Assembly (NCBI RefSeq): GCF_018446385.1
Contig: NC_056001.1
Location: 107,548,436-107,612,435 of the forward strand
DNA from: Zingiber officinale
Taxonomy: Eukaryota; Streptophyta; Magnoliopsida; Zingiberales; Zingiberaceae
Direction of reading: 5' to 3'
Length of the DNA: 64,000 nucleotides
Part shown: positions 7,497-54,742 of the stretch, piece after piece
Numbering within the stretch: position 1 is the stretch's first letter
How the letters are laid out: each line of letters begins with the position of its first letter
Program-made: the position numbers and the translations under genes
Notes under the pieces: model-generated
The model's database searches: none
Told to the model about the DNA's origin: nothing
What the model saw: the letters and a program-made list of their open reading frames with translations, nothing else

Positions 7497-7504
7497 TTAT
7501 ATAG
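7497..7504 (+). promoter_or_regulatory. TATA box of the RAV gene
   Basis: The TATA-like string attatata lies about 165 bp before the ATG at 7662. A CT-rich leader (7588-7611) follows, as in many plant 5' UTRs. An in-frame ATG at 7485 lies upstream of this box, which argues against it as the start. Confidence 0.55.
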
Positions 7505-7661
7505 ATCAAAGTCAAGTGGAGCTCCTCCTCTGAATCTACCCTACAAAATTGGAAACTCCACAGTTATAAGTTTCAACTGCCACAACTTCTCTCGCTCTCT
7601 CCCTCCTGCAGAATTCAATCCGACCTTTCTTTCTAGCTTCTTCGATTCTCAAACGCAAGCC

Positions 7662-19141: not shown

Positions 19142-19642
19142 TAGGGGTGTCAAAAATGAACCCGACCCGACGACCCAACCCGAATCGACCCGAAAAAAAT
19201 CAGGTTCGGGTTGGACATTTTCGGGTTCGGGTCGGGTTCGGGTTGGAGGGTATTCGGGTTGAAGATTTTCGGGTTGGGTCGGGTCGGGTTCGGGTTGACC
19301 CGGGTTGACCCAAATATAGGGTTTAGTGGGGTTTTTTTAGGGTTAAATCAAATTTTATTTTGAAAATTAAGATGTTTTATGTATATTAATATCAAGTTAG
19401 TATGATAATGATGAAATATTGAGATAAAAGTGAAGAATTATAGGGAAAATAACTCCAAAAAGTCATTTTGAATCGAATTTTCGGGTTACACGGGTTGGGT
19501 TCGGGTTGGGCGGGTTCGGGTTCGGGTTTAGGAGTTTCGGGTTGAATTCGGGTTCGGGTCGGGTTCGGGTTGGGTTATAAAAAAAAAAAAAAAAATTTAA
19601 CCCGACCCAACCCGACCCGACCCACCCGAATTGACACCCTTA
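19142..19642. mobile_element. hAT-type MITE, 501 bp, rich in AACCCG/CGGGTT
   Basis: The ends TAGGGGTGTCAA and TTGACACCCTTA are inverted repeats of hAT form. The flanking 8-bp target duplication is exact: GCCTAATC at 19134-19141 and 19643-19650. Both subterminal arms consist of many AACCCGA or CGGGTT units, so the arms can pair. It ends 87 bp beyond the stop codon of the PB1-domain gene and may lie in its 3' UTR. Confidence 0.92.
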
Positions 19643-21448: not shown

Positions 21449-21513
21449 GAACGGACACCCGCATCAATTCGGGTATTTATTTATTATTTTAGAAAAGGAA
21501 GGATGACGACGAG

Positions 21514-25642: not shown

Positions 25643-25748
25643 ATTTTGATATGCCATACTCTTATGTTGCAGAATTCGTGAGCACCTAAAATTTATATTC
25701 GGTTTGAATTTTTTTATATTTAATACTCTCTCTCTATATATATATTTA

Positions 25749-26202
25749 TACCTTGCGCACCCTTATATGGGCGATGGTGGGCGACAGTCAACATGACAAG
25801 TTGACGCCTGGACAAAATTCAACATTTTCTCCTTCTCTTCAAAATGTGTGGACATATTTTGTCTCTCTCTCTCTCCCCTTCCCTTCGTTCACATCGTTGG
25901 TTTTCAAAACCAAAGCCCTAAACTCTCTTCCCCTCTGATCTCGCTCCTCTCTTCCCCCACGTCAGACCCTAGACCCAGATCATCTTCTTCAGTGATTAGC
26001 TCGCGTGGAGTGAGTTAGGGTTTTAGTCCAACTTGTACTACTCATCTCCCTTTTCTACTCATGTTTCGTAATGGCGCATTCCATGGGAGTTACAAAACTA
26101 TCTTGAGTATTTTTCTTTTAACCATCGTTGTTTCTAAGAATCAATTGTTTAAAAACCACTACGAGATACAGTTTATTGGTTAATTTCGAAGGAACATGAT
26201 GG
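25749..26202 (+). repeat. Left terminal inverted repeat of the MULE
   Basis: Aligns with the reverse complement of 47709-48167 from the outer TACCTTGCGCACCC to the inner GAAGGAACATGATG, with substitutions and one short indel, about 85% identity by eye. It contains a CT-rich leader-like stretch and GAGTGAGTTAGGGTTTT, as if it carried a promoter and 5' leader. The 61-codon frame at 25753-25938 lies in the repeat and is not called a gene. Confidence 0.9.
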
Positions 26203-26359
26203 TGCACCAACGTTGCAGTTTATTTTTCACTATGATTAATATTGTAGTTGATTGATAGCAGCGTATAGAAGCTAAAATTTTAAATGATACTTCGACGTTT
26301 CATATGTAATGGTCTTTTCGCTTTGAATGTATTGATTTTTTTTTATAATTCACCACCAC

Positions 26360-26715
26360 GTTGGTACTAGTGTTTTTAAGACCAGCACCAACTTGGTGCT
26401 GGTTTTGAAATACTAGCACCACATCGGTGCTGGTATCATTGGTGCTAGTTTTGAAAGACCAGTACTAATGTGATGCTGATTTTGAAAGACCAGCATTAAT
26501 GTGGTGCTGGTCGGTGATGGTAGAGTTTTGAAAGACCAGTACTAATGTGATGCTAGTTTTGAAAGACCAACATTAATGTGGTGTTGGTCAGTGATGGTAG
26601 TTAGTGCTGATTTTGAAAGACTAACATCAATGTGATGTTGGTCGTTACTGGTAATTGGTGTTGGTTTTGAAAGATCAGAACCAATGTTATATTGGTCGAT
26701 GCTAATTTGGAAAGA
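26360..26715 (+). repeat. Minisatellite of ~32-bp units with a palindromic core
   Basis: About nine degenerate units of the form TTTTGAAAGACCAGCACCAATGTGGTGCTGG follow each other in variants. The best core, CCAGCACCAACTTGGTGCTGG (26391-26411), is a near-perfect 21-bp palindrome. A matching array lies just inside the right terminal repeat. Confidence 0.85.
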
Positions 26716-28122
26716 ATTGAAAGGGTGTGTAGTATTTTTCTAGATTTTGAATCGTTAATATTATTATAATAATTATTTTGTAATTCACATTAACTTGTGT
26801 AGAATTCTTCCCTTTCTTGCCTGAACAAAGAAATTTATAGGTATACTATATTTTGGATGAGATTCTAATTGTAGTGAGCTTCAAGAATTAAAGAAGAAAA
26901 TAGATGCTCAACTTATAACTATCTAGTCACTGATATACTGGTTGTGCTCCCACCTGTATTGTTGCTCAATTTTCTGAATCAAACATTCTACATTAATGGA
27001 AGAAAATATTTGTGATGATCAGCTAGACATTTCCTAAGTCGATGATGATCGAAAGTCAAAAATTGGGATGAAATTTACATCACTGGAGAATGCATTTTCG
27101 TTCTATAATCAATATGCACGAGAAGAAAGATTTAGCGCAAGAATAAGCAATAGTCGAAAAAAATAAGAAAACTAATAAAGTAGCCTGGAAAAATTTTGTA
27201 TGCTTTAAAGAAGGGCATATATATGTTCAACGGAATTTGCAAATACAAGGTGATAAAATCAAAAAGACAAGAGCACGTGGCAAAATTATAATTGGATGTA
27301 AGTGAAAGATTTCATTAGTGAAGGAAATAACTGGACCTAATTGGGTTATCACTAACTTAATTGAAAGTCATAATCATCCACTCTCGTCTCCTACAAAGGT
27401 GCATTTGTTATGCTCACATCGGAGTATTTCAGCAACAAAGGAAGCATGGACTCAATAGTTTTCAGAAGTTAATGTGTCAACCTGTCAACAAGTAAGATTA
27501 TTGAATATAGAGCATGGAGAGTTTGAGCATGTAGGTTGCACAGAAAGAGATATTAGAAACTTCGAGAAAAGTTAAGGGATGAACAAAAGGGTATCGATGC
27601 TGAAACACTGATTGAGTTATTTTCCTATGCGAAAGAGAAGAATTTAGGTTTTTTATTTGATTATGATACTGATTCAGATAACAAATTTTGTAGGTATTTT
27701 TGGGTGGATCATGTATCAAGGAGGGCATATAATGTATTTGGTGATGTAGTTACATTTGATATCACATATAACACCAATAAATATGGGTTAATTTTTGCAT
27801 CATTTATAGGAGTTAATCATCATCATCAGATAATTATTTTTAGTTGCGGATTTCTAAGTGATAAGAAAACTGAGTCATTTGTTTGGTTGCTTAAGAAGTC
27901 CACATAAGTCATGCCTAAAGGTACACCAAACCTGATCATCATTGATTAGGATCCTACGATTGCGAAAGCCATTAGCCAAGTTTTTCCTCAAACAATGCAT
28001 CGATATTGTTTATGTCTTATACTGAACAAATTTATAGATAAATTACACTCTTTGACTTTTTGAAACCATTATCAAAGCATAAAGAATGTCATTGCAAATT
28101 CTACAACACCTAATGAATTTAA

Positions 28123-28204
28123 AGGTAGATCCGCTACCTTAGCGGCCCCCCTAGTGCCGGCCCCACGGATATGGAGGGAGGTTCATGCAGGTACACAGGC
28201 CATA
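28123..28204 (+). mobile_element. 82-bp SINE-like insert with an exact 18-bp target duplication
   Basis: Inserted in the transposase pseudogene: aacacctaatgaatttaa occurs at 28105-28122 and again at 28205-28222. The insert starts AGGTAGATCCGCTACC and holds CCCCACGGATATGGAGGGAGG. Related sequence lies in both units of the tandem duplication near 23325 and 23895. The long duplication suggests LINE-type retroposition, but there is no clear A-tail. Confidence 0.75.
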
Positions 28205-28696
28205 AACACCTAATGAATTTAAGAAGTCATGGAAAGAGGTTATCAAGTGTGCTAACATGGAGAAAAATAATTGATTGTCTTTGATATATGATTTGCAACA
28301 CAAGTAGGTGCCAGTTTATTTTAGGCATATATTTTCTACTGGAATGTTAAGTAGTTAGAGATCTGAGAGCTCACATTCATTTTTCAAGAGTTATGTTTCA
28401 AATAAGAACTCATTGATGGATTTTATCACTCATTTCAATAGGACACTAAGACACCAAAGATACAATGAGTTAGTTGCGAACCATATTAATATGAATGAAC
28501 ATCCCAAGAATGAGACAAACTGGCCAATGAAAATTTAAATTGTTAAGCTATACACAAAAAAATAAGGCTAGAGTAGTGAAATGAGTGATAGTCATGGTTA
28601 TTTTATGCAACGAGCATCTACATTAGTTAACTCAGTGATTTACCATGTGCTGAATTTTCAAAATTATTCTTCCTTCAAACCAAGGGTGCTCACACT

Positions 28697-31583
28697 ATTA
28701 GAGTGTATACTAAAAGCCTAGCTTTTGTAAACATTTATTTGTTGAAATAAAAGAATCACATTGGTCAATATTTGCATTTATTTGTTAAATGTATTTGTTC
28801 AATTAATTTATATAGTAGATAACATGGAGTGTGGTGTCACACTCAGAAGATCATGTTGTCAGTTCTCTATAAATTATAAACAGTTGCTCGCGACTAAGAT
28901 GGAAAGGAACAAACCATCAAAATAGTCGTAGTGTAATTAAGTATTAGTTTATCTTGACTAATAAATTACACTGATACACTTTAAGTGTATTGAGTAGGAT
29001 CATTTAGGTATGTTCTTTTTGTACTGACTTAGTAAAAGAACTAGACCTTAGTTATTATGGAAGTGTGTGCTCTTAATCCTAATATAATAATAAGCACATA
29101 TATTTAATATTTATTTCTTTGACTTATCAAAGGGTGAGGTTTAGCTTGATAAATCAATATGCCCGATAAGTTGGGAAATGATATTACTTATAGTGTGTAT
29201 TGTTGATTATAGAAGGAATCTGTGTCCTGGCTATCTAGGTTGAGAATGTCCCAAGAGGTGCTCATAAGGATTGTCATGTTAAACCCTGCAGGTGGACCTA
29301 GTCCGACATGACAATAAAGTTGAGTGGTACTACTCTTGGAGCTAGATATTAATTAAGTGAGTTGTCAGTAACTTACTTAATTAGTGGACATTCGTAATCT
29401 TAAACACAGGGAGACTAACACACTCATGATAAGAAGGAGCCCATAATGTAATTTGGGATTGGTACGGTAGTGCGGTAATAACTCTCTAGTGGAATGAGTT
29501 ATTATCGATGAACTTGAGTTGTGTGTTCAGGGCAAGCATGGGATACTCAAGCTCATCGGAAAGCCAAAACCAATTTCTCCTCTAGGTCCCTGTCGTATAG
29601 GGGTGTAAACGAATCGAATCGAGCCGAATATGTTGAAAAATTTAAGGCTCGAATTCGGCTCGAATTCGGTATATTCGAGTTCGAGCTCGATTCGAAGCTC
29701 GAAAAATTTAAAATGTTTGGTTCGAGTTCGGTTCGAATTAGGGTTCGGGTTCGAATTCGGCTCGAAATATTCGAACATGTTCGCGAACTATTCGAATTAT
29801 TACCCGAAAATAGGTTCGAAAGGCTCGAAATTTATTTATTTAATATATATTTAACTTATATTAATAAATATTAAGGCTCGTGAGCGGCTCGCGAGCAGCT
29901 CGAACAATATAATTTGGGCTCGAGTTCGGCTCGAAAAAAAGTTCGAACATGTTCGAGTTCGGCTCGAATTCGATAAATTCGAATACGAATCGAATATTTT
30001 TCGAGCCGGCTCGAAAAGCTCGCGAGCCGGCTCGATTCGTTTGCAGCCCTACTGTCGTAGCCTCATTATAGCCTTAAGTCCATCCAAATGTAAGGCTCTT
30101 CTTGGAGTCCAAGAAGGGGGCCGGACCATTGCTTGGTGACCAAGAAATGGCCGGCCACATCCTCTTATAGGGGCCGGCCCTATAGCTTGGTGACCAAGCT
30201 TGTAGGGTCGGCCAAGATTAATTCAAATAGGAGGGGTGTTTTGAATTTTTAAAATCTTCTCTTTGTAGAAAACTATAAGTTTTAAAAGAGAGATTTTAAT
30301 TTTTTAAAACTTTCTTTATTTTGAATTAGGCCACATGTTTTAATAGAGTTTTAAAACTTTCATTTTTTAACCATCCTCATAGTTTAAGAAAAAAAAGGGA
30401 GATAAGTTTTAAAATTAAAATTTTCTATCATCATGTTAAAAAAGGAAATTTTATAAGAGAGTTTTTAAATTTTAAAACATGGTTTTAATTTTTAGAAACT
30501 TTCCTTTTTTAACTCTAGGAAAGAGAGCTTGTAAAATTTTGTAAGAGTTTTTTCTCTTGTAAAATTTTATAAAAAATTATTATTCCTTTCCTAAAACATG
30601 GTGGCTGGCCACCTTGCTTGGTGCCCAAGCAAGGGGCCGGCCAAGCTCAATCCTAAACCAAATAGGATTGATCTCAACCATTGATTGATGATTGATTCAA
30701 TCAAGAGGAAAGAAAAGGAAAAATAAAAAGGAAAAAGGAAAAACTCTTGGATGATTTTATTTTTGTAAAAGGTTTTTCCTTATTTGCCTTGGGCAAGTAA
30801 TATAAAGGAAGGGGTGAGGGGGCTTCATGAGACACAACTCTTATTCTTTTGCTTGGATCTCTTGGTGGCCGACCCTCTCCTTTCTCCCTTTCCCTTTGCT
30901 CTCTTCTCCTTGGTGGTGGTGGTGGCCGAATTCTAGAGGAAGAGGAAGGACTCTTTTGGGTGGTGTTCATCTTGGAGGATCGTCGCCCACACGACGTCCA
31001 AGGCGAGGCGAGGAATACGGCAGAAGATCTTGAGGTCATTAGCTTACAAAGAGAAGGTATAACTAGTATTTTTCTTCCGCATCATACTAGTTGTTTTTCT
31101 TTGTATGAATTCTAAATACAAGAGGCAATTAGATCTAGTTTAATCGAATTTATTTTTCGATTTTGTGTTTACTTCTTTTTTGAATTTGTGATTCGATTGT
31201 TCTTTTTGGTTAACCTAGAGTTATTTAAGGAAATAAATATTAGTTTTCCTTAAAAGGCTTTGCCTAGGCGGTGGTGGTTGCTCTCATGTCCAAGAAGGCC
31301 ATGTGCCTCGCCATGCAGTCCTGGAAGCCAATTTTAGAAATTAATATTTATGGAATTAATAACTTAGGTAGACTTGAATCAATAGTGTTAAGTTCCGCTT
31401 GCGATTCAAATCTAAACTATTAAGAACAGATAAGTTAAATTTGGAATTAATGATGTTAAGTTCCGTCTGCGATTCCTTATTTAACTTCTAAAGAACACAA
31501 TAGGTTATTTAAGGAAAGGTTCGACACTTGTACAAAATTTTTTGCACAGTCGAACCGGTACGTTTTCCTAGGATTAACCAACA
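28697..31583 (+). mobile_element. Solo LTR (probable Ty1/copia, long-LTR type) inside the transposase pseudogene
   Basis: Bounded by an exact 5-bp target duplication, CACAC, at 28692-28696 and 31584-31588. It starts near TATTAGAGTGTATACT and ends GGATTAACCAACA. It contains a TATA-like string and leader (30795-30830) and no retroviral-like genes, so it appears to be a solo LTR. It carries a 454-bp hAT MITE. A SIRE/Maximus-like lineage is a guess from LTR length. The surrounding transposase sequence reads on across the target site. The 112- and 88-codon frames at 30701-31115 are LTR sequence, not genes. Confidence 0.85.
29598..30051. mobile_element. hAT-type MITE, 454 bp, rich in GGCTCGA/TTCGAGC
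   Basis: Ends TAGGGGTGTAAACGAATCG and CGATTCGTTTGCAGCCCTA are inverted repeats. The 8-bp target duplication is exact: CTGTCGTA at 29590-29597 and 30052-30059. It landed in the solo LTR at 28697-31583, so it is the youngest of three nested layers. The frames of 117 and 83 codons over it are repeats. Confidence 0.93.
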
Positions 31584-32140
31584 CACACATCACCATCAGA
31601 GGGACTACATTTCCTGTAGTTGTATGAAATTAAGTTTGAGGGCATTTCATGCAGATATATGTTAGCTTATTTTTGTATCAACCAAGTGTTTCATTTACCT
31701 GATAAGTATATACTCAAAAGATGGACACGAGATGCAAAGGTTGGTGCTGGTTTTTCTTTGGGGAAGGAAGATATAACCGATGATCTAGAAAGGTTATTGA
31801 TGACAAGACACTCAAGGTTATCCTTTAAAGATTTAGTAATAATTAATGATGCATCTTTGATGGATGAGGGGACAAATTTCTTGGATCAACAATTAGATTG
31901 TATTTATAGCAAAATTCAAGAGATGAATATTAGTAGAACATGCGACAATGAAAGTTAAAGAAAGAAATCCATAGATGGGACCCTTAGTATTGTTGATCCA
32001 TCTTTAGTAAGAACAAAGGGATGTGAGAAGAGATTGAAATCATCAATAGAGAAATCAACCTCAAAATCTAGGCTATGTCATGGGTACGAGCTTCGAGGTG
32101 TGCTACATGACAAGCGTAATTGTCCTATTTTGTAGCAAGG

Positions 32141-33179
32141 GTATGCGCCGATTAATTCTACATTTGTATTATAATTTTAATTCTCAATCAAATAGTTTAA
32201 ATAAATTTTGTAAATATAAGGATGTGTTAATTTTCAGATCAATTATTGATAATGAAATGTGACAAGCGATGATAACACATATGAAGCAGATTTACCATCT
32301 ATAGCCGGTACTAACAAAGTTTGTTTTAATTAAATTTTAATGGTTGATTAAGAAATTTAAGTTTGTAATTGTCATTATTGTTGTAGGTTCAAATAACATG
32401 CCTTAGGATAAATAAAGGTTTAGCATCTTTCTTGTATCTATATTCTTGATTTTGATATCTTGTCTGTGAATCACAGTGTAGATTTTAACCCTGTACTAAA
32501 ACTAGTTTACATTCTATTTAATAGTTAAAAGTTATTAGTAGTTATAATTCACAAATTGAAATATATTATGATTTTTCTATATGCTATCTATCCTTAATCT
32601 GGGTTTGTTTTAGTTAGATAGGATTGCTAACTTATTTTGTTCATGTAAAAATAGAACTTTCTCATGTTTTATGATTACATATAGAAAACTAAGTCTTTTA
32701 CTGGTTTAGAAGTTGAAGATTAGTTTAAGGCTTTTATGAATCTGGTTTAGTATATCTCAATGCAAAAATTTGCAAGCTCACAAATGATATAGACTTTGGA
32801 AATAAATTCTGTAAAAACCAACGTGGTTATTGCAATTTGCGTATATTTATTTGCATCATACACATGTTTATATACGATGACTAGATATGCCCCATACCCC
32901 AGCTAAGTTAAAGTTCCCTTAGTATTGGGATTATGAGTGCTTCCTTAGTATGTAACAGTGTGAGACATCGCATTTGCCTTGTTTGGCCAACGTGCAAACA
33001 ATTTTCTGAATATGAACTGGAATTTATAAATATGAAATTTGTAATTCTTGGATGATATTATATAATTATCATATTTTTAGCAAAAGTTTATATTTATTTA
33101 TGAAATTTAGTGTTGCATGTGAATTCCACCAATATTGCTAGTGAAATGATTCTATTGGATATAATCCATTAATGTTGTT
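32141..33179. other. Downstream flank of the transposase pseudogene
   Basis: AT-rich DNA with no recognisable gene. It probably belongs to the inner space of the MULE. Short frames here match nothing I know. Confidence 0.4.
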
Positions 33180-33889
33180 TGATCCTGTTTGAAGGCTGAG
33201 AAGATAACACGCTGGCTCAGGTGGATGACTTGTTGACGAATAGTTAACTCTCCGATCTATGATGAAGCTCCTCAATGATCCTGTGCACAACCAGATAATC
33301 CCACGAAGCATTAGTGACCAAAGACCAGGGAAGGAGTCCCTGGCAAGGCCCTCTAATGCTCAAGTTAGTATTGAGGAAGAACAGTAGTGGATCTACAAAT
33401 GAATGTCTCAAATGCAAAAATTGCATACCTTGTCAACGGAGAGGACTCCCCTTTTTATACCACCTCTTATAATCTCCGTGACCATGAAGTGGCTTCATGT
33501 GCCAAAGTTTATTAGGTTGTTCCTTAAAGAGTTTTCGAGGAATCTTTTTTCTACCCACAGATGTATCTCTTTTGTTGTTTATAACTTAAACCTTCTCTGA
33601 AGTCGTTGGAGGAGGATGTCGTTATGGATGAGTCACCCATGGGAAACAGGATAGCCTTCGAAGGAGGTTCTGAATAATATTCCCCGATAATTATGACAAG
33701 CTATTAAAATATTGTCTGTTACTTGTCTACTGAATGTATCTTGGCTGGGCCACAAGGCCGGTCGTATTACTTGCCATTGTATCAAGTTGCTCTGTCATAT
33801 ATTCAATATTGTAGAGATATGTTAAAAGACTAATATAGTGCCCATAATATGCCAAAGCTTCACTTAAGAAGTCACATGATAGATTATGT
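33180..33889 (-). mobile_element. LTR-like remnant, minus orientation
   Basis: Read on the minus strand it has a TATA-like string with GC-richer leader (plus coordinates about 33447-33470). Ends and family are unclear. Probably broken Ty3/gypsy debris. Confidence 0.3.
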
Positions 33890-36493
33890 ATGTTGGGGCT
33901 TTATTTTAGGGACAATGTAACATTATGTAACTTGAACTCAATCGACCTATGCCTGACCGAGCGGATATGTAGAGTTTTCTAAGGATAAGTGTCTTTAAGT
34001 TCATCCAGTCTTTACCCAATCGGGCATACACAGAGAGCATGATATTCAACCGGCCTTTGCCCGGTCAGTCTTATACTAAGAGTTTTATAAGGCCAAATGT
34101 CCTTAAGACCGCACGATCTTTACACGGCCGAGCGTAAATGGAGAGCCTTACGTTCGACCGGCCAGTCTTATACTAAGAGTTTTATACGACCAAGTGTCTT
34201 CAAGCTCACCTAGTCTCTACTCGGCTGGCGTACATGAAGAGCGCCTTATGTTCAACTGACCTTTGTCTGACCAGTCTTATACTAAGAGTGCTATAAGGCC
34301 AAGTGTTCTGAAGCCCTCCCGGTCTTTACCCGGCCAGGCGTACATGGAGAGTCTTATGTTCGACCAGCCTTTGTTCAGCCAATCTTATACTAAGCCTGCT
34401 CAGTCTCTATCTAGCTGGGCATACACGAAGAGCCTTATGTTTGACCGACCTTTGTATAGCCAGTCTTATACTAAGAGTTTTATAAGGCCAAGTGTCTTCA
34501 AGCATGCTCGGTCTCTACCTGGTCGGGCATATATGGAGAGCCTTATGTTCGACCGGCTTTTGTCCGGCCAGTCTTATACTAAGAATTTTATAAGGCCTAA
34601 ATGCTTAGAGCTCGGTCAGTGTTTACCCGACCGAGCTCCCTTGCACTCGGTCGGCTACTTGACTAATCGGATATACTATTTCTTGACTTCCAGAGTAGAA
34701 CACTAGAGTCCTTATATCCGACTGGTTTCCAAGCTGATCGGCTTTATTCGAATGTCCTACCTTGTAACCACTCGGGCAGGACCCTAGAGTCTTAACGCGG
34801 AGCAATCAACAGAATCATATGGGAAGTGCCCTCCCATTTTGACTTTGACGACCACGTCATCTTCGAGATCCGCTTATTATAACCCATATCACTAGCCTCC
34901 CCTTCAAGTCTAGTCAAAAGAGATGTAAACGACTGACTAGACTCAAGTTCTATTTTTCATACATTTGCCTTCTCACTAGGGTCGTTCGACAATTCGTACT
35001 TTCACCCATAACAGAAACACTTGGTGATTTTTTCAAGAATTGCTCGCTGATAACTTACTATTTAGAAAAGAGGCAGAACCAAGGACCTATGCAGAGACAT
35101 TTGGTTTTCAAAAAATATGTCGCTTGTCATACCCATCATAAATGTCGATTTATATGTGAGTGTCATGTGACACTACTACTTATTTTCTGCAACATCTTCT
35201 GACATTCCCTACTTCGTATGATGCAACCGAACGCCCCCTTTGCAAATCAATGACCCTCCTCGTTCAGGTTGTTCCAATCTAACGGTCACAATTAAACTCC
35301 CCTTTTTATAAAACCCTAGGCGCTGTAAGTTCTTCGCCCTTCATCCTTCCTCCTTTTGAGTTCGTTTTCTTTGACAACCTACCTTTTTCTGTCTATTTTC
35401 TCCGACGATCTTCCTTGCTCTGCATGCCTTCATGCTCGAATCTCAGACAACCCAATAAGTTGTTCACTTTCCGTTTAAGATTTGTTCTACCATGGCCCAG
35501 GAGTCTTTCACTCCGTGGTATACTTTTACTTTTTCAAGCTTTGATGCCTCTGATCGAGCCTATCTCTATTCCAGATATGAAATCCCTCGTAATTATCGCA
35601 TTCGTCTTCCTTCCCCAACCGATCACCCTCATCTTCCTCCTGATAACTATATTACTTTGTGTTCTAACCAATTAGTGGTCGGTTTATGTTTCCCTGTACT
35701 CCCATTTCTATCAGAAGTAAGTCACTATTTCCATATCCCACTGTAACAATTTGTGTCAAATACATTCCGTTATATATGTGGGATGCTCATGTTATTCCAC
35801 CTGTTCGACATCCCTCCTACTCTCTGCAATCTTTATCTGTTCGCTTATCCTAAAAAATCATAATTTGGGTTTTTTCTCTTCCAGTCTAGATTGAAAGCAG
35901 TCTTCTTCGAGGATTTGTCCTCCTCGAACAAGGGCTAGAAGTCACACTTCTTCTTCCTAGAGATGCCAACTCCTGCTACTTGGTCTGTTAATTGGAAATC
36001 TTCCTTTCCTCCTCTTCTTGACCCTACAAAACTAAAAAAGGATCTCATCTACCTTTCATATCTTCCCAAGCTAAGCTATCAACGTTTTAGCATTCACAAG
36101 TGGCTACAAGAGGGCCTTTTGTATCTTTTTAGTTTGAGCCCCGTTCAAAAGATATTACCTTGCCCCTTTGGTAAGTTTTGGTAATTTTGATACTTACACT
36201 ATCTCTAACTAAGGTATTTTTTTTGTTTTGTGCAGTGGATGCTATTCTTTTATCCCTGATCGATGAGTCAATTGATCTGAAAAAGGTGGATCTTTGTATC
36301 ATGGAATAAGAATTATTGGTCGAGCGGGGTTTACCAGTACCCCCTCCTTCTGATGAGGCCTCTACAGATCCCATAGATGAGACGAATACAACTAAAGTAT
36401 CTGGGAAGTTACCTTCGAAACCTTCTCCAACCCCTGTAAGCTCTTCTCCAGAGAAGACAGCTTCTCCCAAGAGACAACGCAAGAAGTGCAAGT
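33890..36493 (+). mobile_element. Ty3/gypsy-type remnant with gag-like region and LTR minisatellite
   Basis: The left part (33930-34700) holds a ~109-bp tandem repeat. A promoter-like string (tttttataaaaccctag, 35302-35318) follows. Then comes a region starting near 35492 whose translation (MAQESFTPWYTFTFSSFD) resembles the plant 'putative gypsy type transposon' domain (Pfam Transposase_28), common in Tat/Ogre-like elements. The element is broken and its right part is missing where the 393-bp array begins. It looks old. Confidence 0.6.
33960..34640 (+). repeat. Tandem repeat of ~109-bp units
   Basis: The string AGTCTTATACTAAG, or a one-base variant, starts at about 34067, 34164, 34273, 34382, 34462 and 34570. 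The full unit is about 109 bp; two are shorter. The 147-codon frame at 34263-34706 is a product of the repeat. Confidence 0.85.
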
Positions 36494-39400
36494 TAACCCA
36501 TAGAACTTGGAATGAGTTCGATCAGACTCCTCTAGGTCCATTAATAGGTTTTGACCTAAACCCATTGATTGACCTAGAGACATTGGATTTATGAAATTCT
36601 TGTATTGGATGGAAGGGGTGTGTAACGACCCACCTTTTGGGTACTGGCTGTAAGGCCGGTCGCTACAATTATGCTGTGCTAACTACTCCCTGACCATCAT
36701 AAAATCTAGGTGCGGAAGCTGTACTAATTTAAAATTTTCTAAGCTGCTAACATTTCTTGATTCTATACATGCTAAAGGGTGTAATCTAAAGTATACCTAG
36801 CATATACTACATCCCTTATGGTCAAGGAGCTGAGATAAACCCTTCCCCGCCGTTTTCAGACCTCCCAATCGATCCATTGATCGATTGAAATGGTCGGATC
36901 GATCCAGTGATCGATCCAGCCGGCTACTGTGCTCGGACGATAATTTGGATCAATCGGCTGATCAATCCAGGCTGGCCAATCGATCCAGTGATCGATCCCG
37001 AAACCTTCTGTTCGCGACAGAATTGACTCGATCGATCGGCTGATTGATCCAGACGCCTTCTGTTCACGACACGAGTTGCCCAATCGATCTATCGATCGAT
37101 TGGAAACCCTCGAATCGATCAGCTAATCGATTCGAGTTACTGATTTCGTGCCAATTGTCTGATTTCAGCACTTATTCGTGCCAAAACTACTTGTAACATT
37201 TCTACATTAAATGCCAAACATTCTATCATCACAAAGATAGTATTCTAAGCATGATAGGGTGCATGATTAACTAGTTCATAACATTTAACATACTAGAATG
37301 CATGTTCACTAATTCATACCATTAACCATACTAGAATGCGAAGCATAAGGGAAAAGAGGACAAGACTTTAATAACTAGGCTTGCTACAAGTTCTAATGCG
37401 TAGTAAAATAAAACTAGATCCCTAGGATCTTTATTCCAGTTCCTGCCACACACATCCTCATCTGCACTGACCTCCAGCCTCCACTGCTAGTCCATTTTCC
37501 TTTTACCTGTATCTGCAGTATAAAGAAAATAGTATCTGTAAGCTAAAAAGCTTAGTAAGAAACCATCTACCTCACTAAATCATGCATACGATGCAAATAT
37601 GCTTTTAAATCATGCTGTTTGAAAAACATACTGAATATGCAAGCATGGCATGACATGGTATCATACAAAGCATGGCATGACATAAGCTGAGCATGAAATA
37701 AAACTGAACATAACATGTCTATAACTGTATATGAAGCTATCATATTTAACAACAGAAATAAGCTGAGTTGACACAAAAGTGAGCTAAGCTGAAGCTGAAC
37801 TAATACTGAATTCCATTATGTTTTAAAACTGATTTGGAAAACTATTATAAATAATAGATGAAAATACTAAACATGCTGCTGTAGGGCCCTAGCAACTGTA
37901 CTTGTTGTGCGCGCATCCCTATCTAAACCCGGGATTGCAAGTTCCGAATCTAGTAGGGTTTACTAGGTTAGCTAAACCTAGGGACGACTATGGGAGTCCA
38001 GCCCAGTGGATATCTAATCCAGTACAGTGCCACTGCTGAAAGTAAAATACTGAATGCTATGTACTTATTTTGCTGAATCTAGGTTATCTGAACCTAGAAC
38101 TAGGTTGTCTGAACCTAGAGGTGACTGTGGGAGCCAACCCATTGGACTGTAGTCCTACATAAGTGGAAATACAACTAATTTGCTGTTTTAAATGCTCCTA
38201 GTGCATTTAATAAGTTAATTAAACTGTCTATTACTGAGCTAGACCTTTAATCGAACACCTAGGATACTCTAACTCTTCTCCCTATTAGGGAGACCACCTC
38301 TAGGCACCCGACAACGTCTAACCTCCTATCTGAAGAGGGAAAACGTGCCCGGCCCATCTAGAGGTGCTCAACTAAATCCCTAATCTGCGAAGAGAGTTAA
38401 ACACACCCTAGATATCAATAAAAATCTGCATACCTCCTAACTAAAGCATAAAAACTCAAACGGAAGCTATTATACTGCAGGTGAGGGGTTTCTTACCTTG
38501 TGTGCTAGATTTCTTACAAATCTAATCGCTAGAACTTCCGGTGGAGATGACTTCTCGACGATTCGCTTGCGTCCACGCGTTCTTCTTGCGGAGGGGAACG
38601 TCCTCGTATCGAAGATCTCGCCGGAAAGTGCTCCTAGAGCCCTTGGGGCTTGGTGTGCCGAGAGAGGAAGAAGAGGGAAGAGGCGACGGTGAGGTTTCGG
38701 TGGTGAGGGTTGAGAAGTTGCCGAACCCAAAATAAACCCAAAACCTACTTATGTTTTCCTATTTATATTAAGCGGATAACTATGCCCAACTTAAATATAA
38801 ATATATTTGATTCTCCTTTCTTTTCAGCACGGCCCTGCTGGGTTCACCGGTTACTAAGGCTAACTAAAGGTTTAGCGGACCCGAGAGGTCCCGGGTTCGA
38901 TTCTCGCTTAAGCCTTTTTATTCTTCTAATTATTTTTGCTACTTCCGCTACTCGGAAAATTTCCGGAAAAATATCTAAAAATTCCAGAAAAATCATAGAA
39001 TAATTCTAATGCAAGTTTGAGAATTTTCGGGCATTACAGGGTGAGTGTAGAATTTATTTATGCTCTCCAAACTTGATTCTAAGACTCTAACTTGAATTTA
39101 TGGTCGCGTGCCAAGTAGCATGGATCATGACGCTATTTTTCTAAAACCAGCAATAGCGTGGTGCTGGTCTTGGAAAAACAACTCCCATGTGACGTTGTTC
39201 TTGGAAAATCAACACCACGATTTTTACAAATCTTCAAATTGTTTGGACCGGCATTGGGAAGATAGTCAAACAATAATTGAGACCATATTCAAACTTTTAT
39301 GAGTCATATAAACCCATAGAACTTGGAATGCGTTCGATCTGACCCCTCTAGGTCCATCAATGGATTATGACCGAAACCCATTGATTAACCTAGAGGCATT

Positions 39401-41100
39401 AGATTTTTAAAATTCTTGTATTGGATAGAAGGGGTGAGTGTGTAGAATCTATTTAGACTCTCCAAATCTGGTTTTGAGACTTCAACCTTAGTTTATAGTC
39501 ATGTACTAAGTGTCATGGACCTTGGCGCTGTTTTTCCAAAATCAGTACAGCGTGGCGTTGGTCTTGAAAAACAACTCCGACATGGCATTGTTCTTGGACA
39601 ACCAGCACCACTATCTTTACAAATCTTTAAACCATGTGGACTAATGTTGGGAGATAGTTAAATAGTAATTGAAGCCATATTCGGACTTGTGTGAGCCGTA
39701 TAAACCCATAGAACTTGAAATGGGTCTGATCCGATCCCTCTAGGTCCATTAATGAGTTTTTACCAAAACCCATTAATTAACCTAGAGGCCTTGGATTTAT
39801 GAAATCTTGGTATTGATAGGAAGTGCCGGATGAGTGTGTAAAATCTATTTATGCCCTCTAAACCTAGTTCTGAGACTCCAACCTAAATTTATGATCGCCT
39901 ACCAAGTGGCACGGACCTGGCGTTGTTTTTCTAAAACTAGCTACAACGTGGCGCTGCACTTGGAAAACCAACATCGCTATGTTAACAAAGCTTCAACCAA
40001 TTTAGACCATTATTGGGATGATATCTAAATAGTAATTGAGTGCATATTCAGACTTGTGTGAGCTGTATGAATCTAAAGAACTTGGAATGGGTACGATCTG
40101 ATCTCTCTATTGATGCCCTCCAAATCTGGTTCTAGACTTGTGTGTAGAATCTATTTATGCCCTCCAAATCTGGTTCTGAGATTCCAACCTGAATTTATGG
40201 GCATGTGCCAAGTGTCACAGATCTTGGCGCTATTTTTCCAAAACCAGCTACAACGTGACACTGGTATTGGAAAAACAACTCCCATGTGGCACTGTTCTTG
40301 TAAAACCAGCACCACTATCTTTATAAATATTTAAACCATTTAGACTAGCATTGGGAATATAGTTAAACAGTAATTGAGACAATATTCAGACTTATGTGAG
40401 TCGTATGAACCCATAGAACTTGGAATGAATTCGATCTGACCCCTCTAGTTCCATCAATGGGTTTCGATCGAAACCAATTGATTTACCTAAGACCTTGGAT
40501 TTTTGAAATTCTGGTATTGATAGGAAGTAGTGAGTGTGTAGAATCTATTTATGCCTTCCAAATATGGTTCTGAGCCTCCAACTTGAATTTATGGTTGTGT
40601 GCTAAGTGGCATGGACCTTGGCACTATTTTTCCAAAACCTGCTACAACGTGGCGCTAGTCTTGGAAGAATAGCTCTCACGTGGCGCTGTATTTGGAAAAC
40701 CAACACTACTATGTTAACAAAGATTCAACCCGTTTAGACCATCGTTGGGAAGATATCTAAATAGTAATTGAGGGCATATTCGGACTTGTGTGAGCTGTAT
40801 GATCCATAAAACTTGGAATGAATCTGATCCAACCCTTCTAGGTCCATCAATAGATTTTAACGCAAACCCATTAATTGATTTAGAGGCATTAGATTTCTGA
40901 AATTCTTGTACTAGATAGAAGGGGTGAGTATGTAGAATTTATTTATGCTCTCCAAACTTAGTTTTGAGACTCTAACCTGAATTTTTGGTCGCATACCAAG
41001 TGGCACGGACTTTGGTGGTGTTTTACCAAAACCAGCTACAACGTGCCACTAGTCTTGGAAAAACAGCTCTCACGTGGGCCTGGTTTTGGAAAAGCAACAC
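36494..41100 (+). repeat. Tandem array of ~393-bp units (interrupted by a solo LTR)
   Basis: Units are marked by GAACTTGGAATG near 36506, 39320, 39713, 40080, 40418 and 40810. The full period is about 393 bp; two steps are shorter (367 and 338). Each unit carries CCAAAACCAGCTACAACGTG and CCAGCACCAC-type strings, related to the minisatellites inside both MULE terminal repeats. The solo LTR at 36621-39038 splits the first unit. No coding potential was found. Confidence 0.85.
36621..39038 (-). mobile_element. Solo LTR, about 2.4 kb, Ty3/gypsy-like
   Basis: It lies between exact 5-bp target duplications, GGGTG (36616-36620 and 39039-39043). On the minus strand it starts TGTAATGCCCGAAAATTCTC and ends GGGTCGTTACA. 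The start resembles the LTR family at 9320-12074 in form (repeats of TTTTCGGAAATTTT kind), so the minus orientation is preferred. Near 36860-37130 it repeats CGATCGAT-type strings. It also holds a tRNA-like B-box segment near 38893-38903. No retroviral-like genes remain, and it looks whole as a solo LTR. Confidence 0.88.
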
Positions 41101-41946
41101 CACTATATTAAAAAAATTAATTATATAATAACTATTTCATTACAAATTGGAATGAGATTTCCTTTACTAATATTATTAAAAATACAATATAAAAATAACA
41201 CAATACTGATGAAACCATATACTTCTATATTTTACAAAAATAGATATACAAGTAATAAAAGTACACAATATTAGCTTTACAATCTCTACCCAAGTAGTCA
41301 AGTTGCAACACAATATATAAATATACTGAAAATAATGAGAACTTGTATCTCATAATTGATACTGATACATCTATTCTAAATCTTTTTATGTCTGCTTGTT
41401 TGAATTCCATCTTCAGATCATATAATAGACATCTAATGTATTGCTTCACAAAGAAGCCATAATCATTAATATAAATAACATGAACAATTTAGTATTTCAA
41501 ATTTAAGATAAATTTACATATTCACACTGACTCTTATACTGTCTTGGCTTTTTGTTATAGACAATCAAATATGACATTGACCATTTGGCAAAGGGATGAT
41601 GACATTCTAAACCAAAATGAATAGAAACAAGTTACTCATGAGAAAAGTAATTTATTTGGGGTACCTATAAGAATAAAAAGTAAAAAACTAATATCAACTG
41701 TAATTTATACTACAATAGTATCGTAAGTAGAGTTATTGTTTTCACACCAATGCTTCAAAATTTGATGATGATTTATGAATATGTGCAAGAGAGTTATAAT
41801 GATTGAAAGTCATAGCTTTTGTGTCCATAGACAACAAGTGAAAATGTACATCACCTGTGGGAATATGTATAAAAAGATACTTAGTCTCTTCCTTTACCAT
41901 ATCAATTTTTTTTTTTTGTGTCGTGGTAGTCTTTTATAGATATTTT

Positions 41947-44900
41947 TGTTGGTGTGGTTAGCACTAACGGTCTAACTCAAGTTTTGACGAATGACAAAAT
42001 AGATTAAGTTAGTTTCGTTGTTATCTAATACTCTGATCGAGTGTGCGGGCGAAGCCCAGACAGGTCGACGGGCTGACTAGATGTTTGGCACGAAGCCCAG
42101 CTATGTCGACGGGCCGATCGGATAGCTGACACGAAGTCCAAACGGATCGACGGGCTGACCGGACGTTTGGCACGAAGACCAGTTAGGTCGACAGACTGAC
42201 CGGATAGTTGGCACGAAGTCCAGACGGGTCGAAGGGCTGATCGGACGTTTGACAAGTAAGTTAAGGTAAGTCACTGGAGGGGAGTGACTGTGAGGACGTG
42301 TTACTGGGAAGGGAACATTAGGCATCGATCCGACTTAGATCCATTTCGGATATTTAAGTGAGATCGAGACTAGATTCCGGTCCCAAGAAGACAGAATCTA
42401 ATTACTATTCTGCTTATCTATAAATTATGCTAACATTCTATTTTAAAAAACTTTAAAAAATACTTTTAAAAATTCTTTTAAAAACTTTAAAAAATGATTT
42501 TAAAAATGATTTTTAAAATTCTTTTAAAAAATTATTTTAATTTTTTTAAAAAAACTTTAAAAATTCTTTTAAAAACTTAAAAAAATTCTTTTAAAAACTC
42601 TTTTAAAAATTTAAAAATTTATTTTAAAATTCTTTTAAGGACTTTTAAAAAAAATTATTTTAAAAACTTTAAAAAATTATTTTAAAAATTCTTTTTAAAA
42701 CTTTAAAAATTATTTTAAAAACTTTAAAAATTATTTTAAAAACTCTTTTAAATTTTAAAAATTATTTTAAAAATCCTTTTATAAACTCTTTTAAAAATAA
42801 AAAAAATATTTTAAAAATCCTTTTATAAACTCTTTTAAAAATAAAAAAAATATTTTAAAAATTCTTTTAAAAAATATTAATTTTTTTTTTAAAACTTTAA
42901 AAAATTATTTTAAAAATTCTTTTAAAAACTTTTAAAAAAATAATTAAAAAAATTCTTTTAAAAACATAAAAAAAAATATTTTAAAAATTATTTTAAAACC
43001 TCTTTTTTAAAACTAAAAAAAATATTTAAAAATTCTTTTAATAACCGTAAAAAATTATTTTAAAAACTTAAAAAAAATTATCTTAAAAATTCTTTTAAAA
43101 AATTTAATAAATTATTTTAAAAACTAAAAAAAAAATATTTTAAAAATTCTTTTAAAAACTTAAAAAAAATCATTTTAAACTTAGGTTAACCTGACTAACC
43201 TAAATTTATTACAATTAAACTTAAACTGACTAACCAAGTAAAAGCTGCTATCCTTTAATAGTAAGTAAGTAGCTAATTGATTAGATAGTTTTTGTAATGT
43301 CAAGTTCAGGGGGAGGATTAATGATTTTCATACTTATTTTGAAATTAAGTTTTGAAAAATATTTCTTTAATAACATTTTAAACCTTTTTAACACTAACAA
43401 AAATTTTGGATTTTCCAAACTTAAGTTTAAATGTAGGTTTGAAAAGTGGTTTTATTTAGTTTCGAACTTTAAAACATTTTAAACTTAAGTTTGAAAATCG
43501 TATTTATCTAAGATTTTTCACACTGAGCTTTGAAAATTAAATCTTACTTAGTTTTGAAAATTAGATTTATCTGCTTGGTTTTTCTTATGTTTGAAAAGTG
43601 TTCAAACTTAGTTTGAAAAGTGTTCAAACTTAGTTTGAAAATTAAATAAAATTAGTATTTGATTTGAAAATTTTACTTTTGCAAAACTGTCTTTATAAAA
43701 TTTATGTTTAAAAAGTTGTTTTAAAAACTTACTTCTGAAAATTTGATTAATTTTACAAAATTTATCATAAAAAAAAAATTCAAACTTAGCTATTTTTGAA
43801 AAAGATAAAAAAATAAAGCTTAAAACAAAATTTTCAAGAGTTGTCTATATTATACTCCCCCAAGTCAATCTTACTCGAGTTTAGTTTCTCTCTTGCTTCT
43901 TTTACTTAGTCATTTACAATCATCATTTCTACTATGTTTATTTTTGAATGCCAAAGGGGGAGAGTTAGGTGGTTTAAGTTAGTTAAACAACAAAATTTAA
44001 AACAAAGCTAACTTAACAATCTTATAAATGCTTGTTTTTACTTGCATATTTATTTCACTAACTTAACCAGATTGTCATTGCATCAAAAAGGAGGAAATTG
44101 TTGGTGTGGTTAGCACTAACGGTCTAACTCAAGTTTTGATGAATGAAAAAATAGGTTAAGTTAGTTTCGTTGTTATCTAACACTCTGATCGAGTGTGCAG
44201 GCGAAGCCCAGACAGGTCGACGAGCTGACCAAATGTCTGGCACGAAGCCCAGCTAGGTCGACGGGCCGACCGGATAGCTGGCACGAAGTCCAAATGGGTT
44301 GACGGGCTGACCGGACGTTTGACACGAAGACCAGCTAGGTCGACGGGCTAACCGGATAGTTGGCACGAAGTCTAGACGGGTCGAAGAGCTGATCGGACGT
44401 CCGACAAGTAAGTTAAGGTAAGTCACTGGAGGGGAGTAACTGTGAGGGCATGTTCCTGGGAAGGGAACATTAGGCGTCGATCCAACCTAGATCCATTTCG
44501 GATATTTAAGTCGAGATCGTGACTAGATTCTGGTCTCGAGGAGATGAAATCTAATTACTATTCTGCTTATCTATAAATTGTGCTAACATTATATTTTGCA
44601 GGATATAAATTATACTTGCCTCGGACTAACATTTTCTTGCAGGAAGGAGATTGCCGGAAAACATAGGTTCGGGCGCCCGGAGGCAAATTTTATCTCTATC
44701 ATCGCCTCGCCACGTGGAGCTTGCTAACTGGCTCGGCTACGTCACATTCAGGGCGCCCTGAAGGGATCCGGACGCCCCGAATCTCCTATATAAGGAGGGT
44801 GAAGGCTGAAGCAAAGACACAACTCACGATCTACGCTTCTGTGCTCCTATGACGTTGCAGAGGCTCTCCAACAAGTTTTGTTTGTGTCTTATTCTCTTAT

Positions 44901-45148
44901 TGTCGGTTTCTTTTCTTTTACTAAATAATTCCTGTACTATATTTGTAAAAAACTTTCGAATTATTAGTGATTACCCAACGAAAGCGCTCAACGAGTGCGG
45001 ACCTTGGAGTAGAAGTCGACAAAGGCTCCGAACCAAGTAAAACGACCTTGTTAGCATTGTGTTTTCATTTTTCCGCTGCCTACTCTATACGCCGATATTT
45101 TTAAATCGCTATTCACCTCCCTCCCTCTAGCGAAACTCATCGATCCAA
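41947..45148 (+). mobile_element. LTR retrotransposon with both ends, probable Ty1/copia, broken
   Basis: Bounded by an exact 5-bp target duplication, ATTTT (41942-41946 and 45149-45153). The 3' LTR is 44099-45148 (1050 bp, TGTTGG...CCAACA). The 5' LTR starts at 41947 and matches it for about 480 bp, over 90% by eye. A PPT-like purine run and a ccaaagggggagag string precede the 3' LTR. Internal coding sequence is largely absent, so it is broken and non-autonomous. Each LTR holds short repeats of the gtcgacgggctgaccgga kind. A TATA box (tatataagg, 44788-44796) lies in the 3' LTR. It landed in the Ulp1-like pseudogene, and LTR similarity suggests a moderate age. Confidence 0.85.
42440..43180. 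repeat. Low-complexity (TTTTAAAAA)n tract
   Basis: About 740 bp of units like ATTCTTTTAAAAACTTT in irregular phase inside the LTR retrotransposon. TTTTAAAA is self-complementary, so the tract can fold many ways. Confidence 0.95.
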
Positions 45149-47439
45149 CAATTTTGATGTTGACTACAATTGTGCAAAGAGACATATTTAAGCAACCAAT
45201 TAATATAACATATTCAAACATTATATATTACCCAATAAATTAAATTCCTTATAGTGAAAATGGTTGAAAAATATATAGAGTTGTTGTATGACGTACTTGA
45301 TGAGGAGGCCCCCCTAAATAGAATTGAACAATATATATCAATTAACTCTCCTCTTGTAAACACATTATCATTTACACCAATGAATAAGGAAGCCATAGTT
45401 AAAAAAAGGCGCTTCATCCCAAACATGTTCTCTAGTAGGCTTGAAAAGAAAATCATTTACTTTTAATTATGTCAACAAATATTATAACCTGTGAATTTTT
45501 ATACTTGTCAAAGAATTAAAATAATTGTATAATGAGGGGTTAAAACTAATATACTTTAGTTTTTCCAATGCATTTAACAAGTAGGCCACATCTTCATTTT
45601 GTTTTTTCTTCTTAGGAGTTTTAAATTGTTTCTTCAAATACTACCACAAACAAAAAATTGTAATTAGTGATTGAAATCAAAGAACTAAAATTAATTGATG
45701 TGTACCTATAGACTTATTGTAATGACTTGCATTCTCATTTTATTAAATATGCTAATTTTTTCAGCCTTCTTGGCATCTTCTTCAAAATTTACTTCTAGAA
45801 TTGATATAAACTCTCCCTCTTATTCTCTATCATCCAAATCAATTTTTTATTTTCTCCGGTTAAGACCAACCGTAGATATTGTAATGTTCTCCAAAGGCTT
45901 GCTGATTTCTATCTTGCTTCTCTTCTTTAGAGGTAATAGCTTTAACCACATATGACTATCAATAGGAGTATCCCTGTAATCATAGCAACTTCAATTACGA
46001 CCTCTCCTAGTCCTTGTTCTAGAAGCAATGGGTTCAGGATGAGGATCCAATATAGGGTCGCTTGATTCAACCAAGATGCCCTAATTTTCTATTATTCTAA
46101 GTAATTCTTGCACCCTTTCATTTAGCTAATTGTTCTCCATTGCTAGCTCCTTGATTCAGTTATGATGAATAATACATTTAGGGCATTCACTATTAGTTGG
46201 GCAACTACCTTCTATATCATATATCGGAGATGCCTCTAATGGATGTGGAGTAACATCGAGCTAAGGGAGATTCCCTACCAATGTTTTTTTATAAGGGATA
46301 GAGACTAGTTCACTAATAACCTATCAAACTAGAAATAATTATTTAATAATTGCAATATGAATTAGGTGATAGTGTTAGATATTTACCTGTTCAGGTGATA
46401 CTTGCTCCAACAAAGCTCTTACCTTACTAATATGGGAAGAAGTAGATCTCCACTGTGTTTATTCGTGCGCCTTCAGTATTATATGATTTTTAGATTGGGA
46501 CATGCTCCAAAAATCATGCCTATAACATTAGACACAATCTTACATACATAATAATGTCCATATAAAAAACTACATTTACCATTAAAAAAAACTTACAGTT
46601 AAAAGACCAGCAAATGTCTTGAGGTATGGAACTAAAGTAGTTGTATGAGATGTAAGACTTGATGCAAAAGATCCCTAATGGTAAGTAATTGGGAAGCAAT
46701 ACATTGATGAATCGCTTCAACCCAATTGAATTTACTTAAATTTTCAAAATCATCTACAATATCTATAAGACCTAATGGAACCTTATATGTATTAGACAAA
46801 AATAAAATACAAACAAATATATACAAAATACTAAAATATCAGCATCTACTTCAATTCTATGAAAATAGAGTTTAAGCAATTCTTCAATTCTTGATCTAGT
46901 ATGTTCTTTCTTATGGTAAAAGTGAGCAAGGAAGAGGGCATTCGATGCCTTAATTGAGTTCATAGGAACAGAAGCATCTCTATCTGAAATATCAAGTAAT
47001 AAAGATACATCTCTTCTAGTGAAAACTACTGGGACACCTGAAAATTTAAATTGATTAGTTTTGTATTATGTACTTTTAACTTTCAAAACTAGAAAATGTA
47101 CTCGAAAATATAAATGTTTGAGATGCTGAATCCCAACTTTGAAATATATTCATGAGTAGACCATGAATTTGTTGAATATCTTGTATATCCAAAAAATAGC
47201 AAAAGGGGACTATTTAATAATCGTTTTATGTCGATCATGTAAACGAACAGAACCATGATCTTGTTCTTTCATTGTTGGCTGGCAAAAAAACCATTAAAGT
47301 GACCTAAAACACTAGTCCATTGGAATTTATGACCCACACCAACTGATGACCGAAATCCCATGGCAAAATATCAATTATTTACATAAATAAATAAATGCAT
47401 ATATGCAAAAATAATGTTTCTATGATTAAGGAAAGTCAT

Positions 47440-47700
47440 CACATGTTGTGCTAGTTTTTACAAACAAGCACAACGTTGTTGGTTTTTACAAACTAGCATA
47501 ATGTTGTAGCTGGTATTGAAAAATAACACAACGTTGTAGCTAATTTGCAAAAACCAGCACCAAGGTTGGTGCTGGTTTGCAAAAACCAGCTACAATGTGA
47601 CCATTTGAATAAAACAACATATAGAAACTCGATTTTTTGCAAAACAATAGTACGCTGGTACTACTTTTTGAAAAACACCACCTATGTGCCCATTTTTTAA
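47440..47700 (-). repeat. Minisatellite inside the right MULE repeat
   Basis: Degenerate units like those at 26360-26715, read on the minus strand. The core ACCAGCACCAAGGTTGGTGCTGGT (47556-47579 region) is again a near-perfect palindrome. Confidence 0.75.
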
Positions 47701-47708
47701 AACCAAAA

Positions 47709-48167
47709 TCATCATGTTCCTTCAAAATCAACCACTAAACTATACCTCGTAGTGATTTTTAAACAACTGATTCTTAGAAACAATGATGGTTTAAAGAAAA
47801 ACACTCAAGATACCTTTGTAACTCCTGTGGAATGCATCATTAAGAAATACAAGTAGAAAAAGGAGAAGAGGGAGATGAGCAGTATAGGTTAGACAAAAAC
47901 CCTAACTCACTCCATGCGAGCTGATCGCTGAAGAAGATGATCTGAGTCTAGGGTCTGATGCGGAAGAAGAGAGGAGCGGAATGAGAGGGGAAGAGGGTTT
48001 AAGGATTTGGTTTTGAAAACCAGCGACGTGAACGAAGGGAAGGAAAGAGAGAGAGCCAAAATATGGCTACACGTTTTGAAGAGAAGGAGAAAATGCTGGA
48101 TTTTGTCCCCGTCAGCTGACCATGTTAGTTGTCTCCTACTATCGGTCATATAAGAGTGTGCAGGGTA
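47709..48167 (-). repeat. Right terminal inverted repeat of the MULE
   Basis: Counterpart of 25749-26202 in inverted orientation. A (TA)n microsatellite (48166-48190) sits directly outside it. The 80-codon frame at 47907-48149 belongs to the repeat. Confidence 0.9.
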
Positions 48168-48190
48168 TATATATATATATATATATATAT

Positions 48191-49019
48191 AACTTATGCT
48201 GTGTATGGAGCAAACTTGTCTGCGCCATAATGAATCAAGGCACCTCAGTTCAATTTTTTCTTCATTTTTGAAAAATCAACCTTTCCTTACATTTTAAATC
48301 TTAAATATATATTATATCTCGTGAGCACTTAAACTTTTATTTTATTTTATTTTTTAACTTAAACACTATAATCCAACCCCTAAACCCTAAAGATAAAATC
48401 TAATTGGCTTAACCCCAGATCTAAAAAAAATTTAAAAAAAAAGACTATCATACACCCTAAATATATACCCCATGAGCACTTAATTTTTTTTAGCTTGAAC
48501 ACTATAACTCAATCGTTAAACCATAAAAGTAAAATTTAATTGGTTTAACCTCAGAACTAAATAAAAATAAAATTTTTAAAAAGCTACTGAATTGGTCCAA
48601 GCGCCTCGACCATTGTCATGGACAAAGTCTGCAACATATATATACGCGATGCTTCCTACATGATCGTGAGCAATGTGCTTACATGGCATTACCAGTTTGA
48701 TTTCTTTATATTATTAAATTCCTTTTATTCTCTCTCCTCTTCCGCCCTCTATTCAAAACCTTGCCCTCGACTTTTAATCTCACAAATTTCCAAAATCTAA
48801 ATTTCCCTCTCTCTCGCTCCTTCCTTTGTCGTTGTCTTCCATCGATCTCGCTCATGTTAGCAAGCAAAGCAAAGGTGTTGCAAGCTAAACAGCCACGTGC
48901 GTGTTCTCGAGTTGGCTGGAAGCTCCCCAAATTACTACCTCAAACATAGCCGATGTTGCTTTACTTAGAACACCTCTCCATTCTCGATCATAAGCTTTTC
49001 CACTCCACTCTTTGTTTTT
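48191..49019. other. Intergenic DNA with a short tandem duplication
   Basis: Segments starting near 48320 and 48470 share GAGCACTTAA, AACACTATAA and TAAACC-type blocks about 150 bp apart. A CT-rich stretch (48730-48850) precedes a small frame at 48855 (MLASKAKVLQAKQPRACSRV) that I do not recognise and do not call a gene. Confidence 0.4.
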
Positions 49020-54415: not shown

Positions 54416-54742
54416 TTGTCGGAATGAATAAATCATCTTTTTTACCATATTGATATAGTTGAATTGGTATCGAAATGGTGAACTTGTAAATAACACTCTC
54501 ATTTAGAAGATTGTTCGATAAGAAGACTTGCGTGAGTGAGCGTAATCATATTTTACATAATTGATGGGTAAAGATGGACAGGATCACCTTTCAACTTAGC
54601 TCATTTTATCCAATCGGTGAAGAGAATGTAGCTTTTTTAATTTGATGATAAAAAGCACACTTTTAAATGCTCCTATCTCCAAGCTAGCTAGCTCCTCTTC
54701 TTCACTCTCGATCTCTCCCGAGCAAAGATTTGGCTAAGAAAA

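Follow-up and report, generated by a model that had tools for sequence, protein, structure and literature searches.

The window analysed here, a 64,000-nt stretch of the Zingiber officinale genome (NC_056001.1; C16:107548436-107612435), very probably contains a decayed two-gene Mutator-like DNA transposon that has a FAR1-type (Jittery-like) transposase gene and long terminal inverted repeats (TIRs), and that belongs to a family with termini that are usually embedded in TA repeats. The element spans 22.4 kb because of nested insertions. The transposase gene lies on the + strand at the left and a second, protease-like gene on the - strand at the right, giving a convergent arrangement within the TIRs. 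Relatives were sought in the host assembly (3.09 Gb, 211 contigs); C1-C16 are used below as contig labels and L0nn as names of fetched loci.

The left TIR (25735-26201, + strand), whose outer edge merges into a TA tract, aligned with the right TIR (47710-48181, - strand, read as 48181-47710) at 83.6% over 476 columns (E = 6e-144). An ungapped comparison resolved three blocks (86-90%) and placed the inner arms 21508 nt apart, and the right TIR runs out into (TA)13 at 48166-48191. These data confirm the ~455-bp inverted repeats 21.5 kb apart described in a first-pass annotation, which had been made from the sequence alone. The same annotation reported a similar minisatellite inward of each repeat and a transposase gene facing a protease-like gene from the left. 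We detected the minisatellites at 26361-26698 (palindrome-like units, from Tandem Repeats Finder (TRF) rows and the sequence) and at 47445-47595 (TRF row and sequence, with units judged similar by eye), and the two genes as tblastn pieces on the + and - strands. The element therefore has the TIRs required of a TIR-type Mutator-like element (MULE). By eye, its ends read like CAAA(C/G)TTGTTACCCTGC, and a 24-base terminal pattern occurred 82 times at no more than three mismatches and not once when read backwards. The left TIR had 43 matching rows genome-wide, from which 30 loci were fetched. A matching copy on C15, with a left repeat 96% alike and outer ends 44 kb apart, is the allele of the window element on the other haplotype.

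The transposase gene consists of a first part at 26984-28694 (+ strand), which contains the MULE domain and in-frame stops, and a second, SWIM-side part at 31581-32144 (+ strand), both located by tblastn with the intact relative L044. Between them is a 2.9-kb insertion (28695-31583) that is missing in the C15 haplotype (L040) and in L069. Five tblastn pieces, with several in-frame stops, align the window gene to L044 over nearly its whole length. In Pfam scans, which were made on single open frames, the window exon at 27557-27904 scored 49.2 bits for MULE against a cut-off of 27.6, while the exon at 31620-31955 had no match. The 723-aa product of L044 scored 76.4 bits for FAR1, 110.5 for MULE and 33.1 for SWIM, the domain order of the Jittery/FAR1 group (N-terminal FAR1, then MULE and SWIM). 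The MULE transposase domain in both the window exon and L044 marks them as Mutator-like, and this match, together with the alignment to L044, bears out the annotated FAR1-type transposase.

For the right gene, PMD/DUF1985-like exons were found at 46591-47065 (- strand; tblastn match at 47029-46591), a C48 histidine/aspartate block at 41745-41909 (- strand; C48-exon search and tblastn) and a C48 cysteine block at 41348-41485 (- strand; tblastn with an exon of the relative L084), in which the cysteine position holds another residue. The gene is split by an insertion (41952-45146) that is absent from the C12, C11 and C1 copies and contains an LTR-like pair of 500-bp direct repeats (41946-42444 and 44098-44597; 92% alike). 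The three exon peptides of L084, when joined, matched Peptidase_C48 at 43.8 bits (cut-off 20.7), two of the three passing singly (24.1 and 24.3 bits), and their closest solved structure was SENP5 (E = 0.00033, over 34 residues). L084 thus has the Ulp1 (C48) domain found in the second gene of Kaonashi/KIU elements, and the window blocks align with it, the cysteine being lost. The PMD-like exon of the window matched neither PMD nor DUF1985 in Pfam. The proposal of a PMD/Ulp1-like right gene is supported, the PMD likeness coming through relatives and at scores under the cut-offs. Of the profile hits expected for the two genes, MULE was obtained in the window and FAR1 and C48 in relatives; the C48 exon of the C12 copy had no Pfam match. 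The copy in the window is dead, its transposase being interrupted by in-frame stops as well as the 2.9-kb insertion and its protease having lost the catalytic cysteine. Elsewhere in the genome, more than 1000 second-gene candidates appeared at first look, and the best 150 were scored for each of the PMD-exon and C48-exon queries; among these, DUF1985-like and C48 exons co-occur by coordinates, ~2 kb apart, at many places. L084 and its kin include dozens of second-gene places with one identical score, suggestive of a recently spread family.

That the two genes belong to one element is supported by a 10.9-kb copy on C12 (~76532518-76543445), in which a TIR, a minisatellite, a FAR1 gene (+), an array of 394-bp units, C48 exons, PMD exons (-) and a second TIR follow one another. 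This copy, whose FAR1 gene is truncated, is collinear with the window from TIR to TIR, and the array of ~394-bp units in mid-element (39045-41115 in the window, by TRF) is common to both. L081 on C11, 91-93% like the C12 copy, looks like an allele of it. We also compared 40 FAR1 places with 190 right-gene places (the first 40 of 59 rows plus 150 C48-exon places) for pairs within 70 kb. Seven rows were convergent (two each on C16 and C15, one each on C14, C2 and C1), one was tandem (C9) and none was divergent, with TIRs read at some of these places only; in 200 shifted controls the mean was 0.045 convergent rows and the maximum 2. The pairs on C1 (106671-106690 kb) and C2 (119415-119447 kb) are probably alleles of one locus; the C14 pair lies at 95371-95435 kb. 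On C1 the genes converge 11.7 kb apart, and its right end, followed from the TIR as far as the C48 exon, is without the insertion seen in the window; on C3 (103721-103782 kb), 59 kb separate a FAR1 end from a PMD end oriented toward it. The C12 copy is of the 10-11 kb size and two-ended form that the first-pass annotation had predicted, albeit with a truncated FAR1 gene, and together with the convergent pairs supports its claim of one Mutator-like element with two convergent genes. The outcomes that the annotation had named as contrary, separate complete elements for the two repeats or no copy with both genes, were not encountered where examined. One further candidate, C4:109590400 as left partner of the end at C4:109627816, was rejected, as no FAR1 sequence was found in its 4.5 kb.

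The family ends are associated with TA repeats. A run of at least five TA units, sought from 70 bp outside to 20 bp inside the end, was present at 20 of the 30 TIR loci, four of these 20 belonging to the window and its allele. Control windows taken from the outer flanks had such a run in 147 of 6000 cases. These ends thus show the insertion in (TA)n that characterizes MuTAnT elements. Both window flanks are TA-rich, and because of this the target duplication of MULEs (8-11 bp; 9 bp in the first-pass annotation) is not readable there. A search for an empty site found the right flank adjoining the element in both haplotypes. At L029, L032, L035 and the right end of the C12 copy, the TA run, by eye, joins the terminal repeat at an internal TATA and the outermost bases are gone, a possible route by which ends and target duplications vanish. 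At L075 (C10:84187400-84188100), two family ends lie outer side to outer side with a short TA-rich stretch between them.

Several copies retain traces of movement. L073, a 0.6-kb deletion copy, retains its two ends and shows, by eye, a 10-bp near-duplication that differs at one position, and L074, a 2.4-kb deletion copy, keeps the TIR, the minisatellite and part of FAR1; element ends are thus retained in both. In a related FAR1 family (L044-L048, L053), copies are >99.7% alike over 3.3 kb, and FAR1-MULEs of this genome have therefore moved recently. Around L046 lies a 6.85-kb copy with TIRs 88% alike and, within that length, no match to the right gene. It also holds a piece of an H+-pyrophosphatase gene (88.7 bits; L078:4673-5047, C11), a captured gene in a recently active FAR1-MULE.

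A number of observations weigh against a single two-gene element of this description. The 5´ exons of the relatives score at best 16.2 bits for PMD and 15.0-15.8 for DUF1985 (cut-offs 34.9 and 35.1). Among the other loci read, only C12 has both genes and both TIRs whole, and there FAR1 is truncated; the best-150 FAR1 and best-150 PMD lists pair solely at the window and its allele, the further pairs having come from closer DNA queries and the C48-exon query. At the C1 locus (L082), the 2.5 kb fetched on the FAR1 side showed no TIR. The pairs on C14 and C3 are widely spaced (~60 kb), and many FAR1-MULEs of the genome, such as the family of L046, are without a second gene. The L046 element is moreover above chance for the minisatellite core described below (4 vs 0.9). 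The wide spacing and the solitary FAR1-MULEs, as well as the appearance of one gene near one end at most TIR loci, are what would be expected if two elements sharing a TIR family, one a FAR1-MULE and the other a PMD/Ulp1 element, had come to lie next to each other in opposite orientation. Inward of the 30 TIR loci we indeed found a FAR1 exon at four, a PMD exon at 21, neither at five and both at none (the window and its allele being within the first two counts), but each locus shows one gene only because each gene begins beside its own TIR. Because collinearity between the C12 copy and the window extends across both genes and the 394-bp array, with a single TIR at either end, and because convergent pairs exceed the control, we regard two adjacent elements as very improbable. 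The TA repeats, in turn, might be a by-product, having grown from a TATA inside the terminal repeat or arisen by decay of the ends, with no choice of target. The four joins at an internal TATA favor such an origin, but in the relative L046 the termini are clean, with a long TA run beyond each of them, and empty sites of MuTAnT are reported to contain TA repeats (PMC4486113). A by-product therefore seems unlikely, though less so than two adjacent elements.

Beyond the observed anatomy, convergent genes, domains in relatives, recurring gene pair and TA flanks, we infer that the single two-gene element moved by cut and paste. In working copies, the terminal repeats would be bound by the FAR1-MULE-SWIM transposase, which would carry the element mostly into TA microsatellites; silencing would most likely be kept off by the second protein, which is DUF1985/PMD-like and has an Ulp1 (C48) protease domain at its C-terminus. 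Anti-silencing is the most likely role of the second gene by analogy, since VANC and its Ulp1-bearing form KIU act in this way for VANDAL elements: VANC contains DUF1985 and both binds short motifs within tandem repeats and strips off methylation (PMC5735166), and KIU is VANC with Ulp1 (PMC13317346). The gene could instead be a passenger, host DNA captured by transduplication with no part in transposition or silencing. ULP sequences in MULEs have been treated as repeated transduplication (PMC2528002), the family of L046 did capture a piece of a host gene, and the second gene has decayed in the window. Against this, the DUF1985-like and C48 exons recur together at many places among the best-scored candidates, and some copies, such as L084, have open exons. 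We consider a passenger origin possible but rather doubtful.

The subterminal minisatellites could be relevant to such a role. At no more than two mismatches, the core CCAACGTTGG had 51 occurrences inward (1.5 kb at each of the 30 loci), compared with 7.6 in shuffled sequence, and 26 outward, 18 of these in L034 and L036; inward counts exceeded outward counts at 21 loci, fell below them at three and tied at six. The exact 22-base palindrome has only five genome places, and L084 carries a different array at the same position, with 33-bp units and a similar core. The core is enriched also in the L046 element, which has no second gene, and a binding role is not claimed for it; a link between core and second gene is offered as a suggestion only. 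Tentatively, in this TA-inserting monocot TIR-MULE with its FAR1-type transposase, the DUF1985-Ulp1 gene might encode an anti-silencing factor that recognizes the element's own palindromic subterminal minisatellites. If so, the VANC/KIU strategy would be a module common to MULE lineages that are only distantly related, each of which would use a repeat code of its own.

Close kinds of this element are already known. ULP sequences are described in some Jittery-like families of grapevine, and in melon with citation of van Leeuwen 2007 (PMC2528002). These MULEs likewise have a Jittery-like transposase with ULP downstream in the same element, but their hosts are eudicots, and TA targeting and subterminal palindromic minisatellites are unmentioned in the available part of that paper. 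MuTAnT/AutoMuTAnT of Medicago (PMC4486113) share the Jittery-like transposase, long TIRs and (TA)n insertion, and 9-nt duplications of MuTAnT are rare; they differ in having a single open reading frame (ORF) and, judged by eye from the published search mask, a different terminal sequence. Kaonashi/KIU and VANDAL with VANC (PMC13317346, PMC5735166) resemble the ginger family in non-coding tandem repeats and in a second gene; theirs holds DUF1985, which relatives of the ginger gene resemble below the Pfam cut-off, and in KIU also Ulp1. KI-MULEs are, however, described as non-TIR, whereas in the window family the TIRs are long and the transposase is of FAR1 type. Two convergent genes in one TIR-MULE also occur in MuDR and type II Abermu (PMC9168764), but Abermu is placed near MuDR and away from Jittery, and the likeness is one of gene layout. 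According to a table in PMC6446971, the Jittery group has a single ORF, and PMD is listed for other plant groups; the window-type element has two genes. Finally, Ac-mMITEs of pineapple (PMC8449440) are monocot elements with Mutator-like ends in (TA)n and some 9/10-bp duplications, but are non-autonomous only.

The suggestion of an undescribed MULE lineage in the first-pass annotation thus has to be narrowed: ULP-bearing Jittery-like MULEs and a TA-targeting MULE are both in print, while the combination with the TA-repeat habit looks new. No paper joining a FAR1-type transposase, an Ulp1 gene and TA targeting was found in the literature searched, most subscription papers being outside its reach. 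A FAR1-type transposase, a second gene of Ulp1 type and termini in TA repeats would here be united in one monocot family, and a family of this kind is a candidate source of TA-flanked miniature inverted-repeat transposable elements in monocots, for which no autonomous partner was found in pineapple (PMC8449440). The large number of first-look second-gene candidates could also be used to test DUF1985-Ulp1 anti-silencing outside the VANDAL elements of Arabidopsis.

Other features were noted in the window on both sides of the element. An open frame at 7476-8597 (+ strand) has AP2 and B3 domains, which we take to be a RAV-type transcription factor, and another at 54692-55678 (+ strand) has a TCP transcription factor domain (147.9 bits). 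A third, at 20498-21463 (- strand), has a PB1 domain (48.4 bits), and an array of CGGGTT-like hexamers with 15-bp units occupies 19205-19629.

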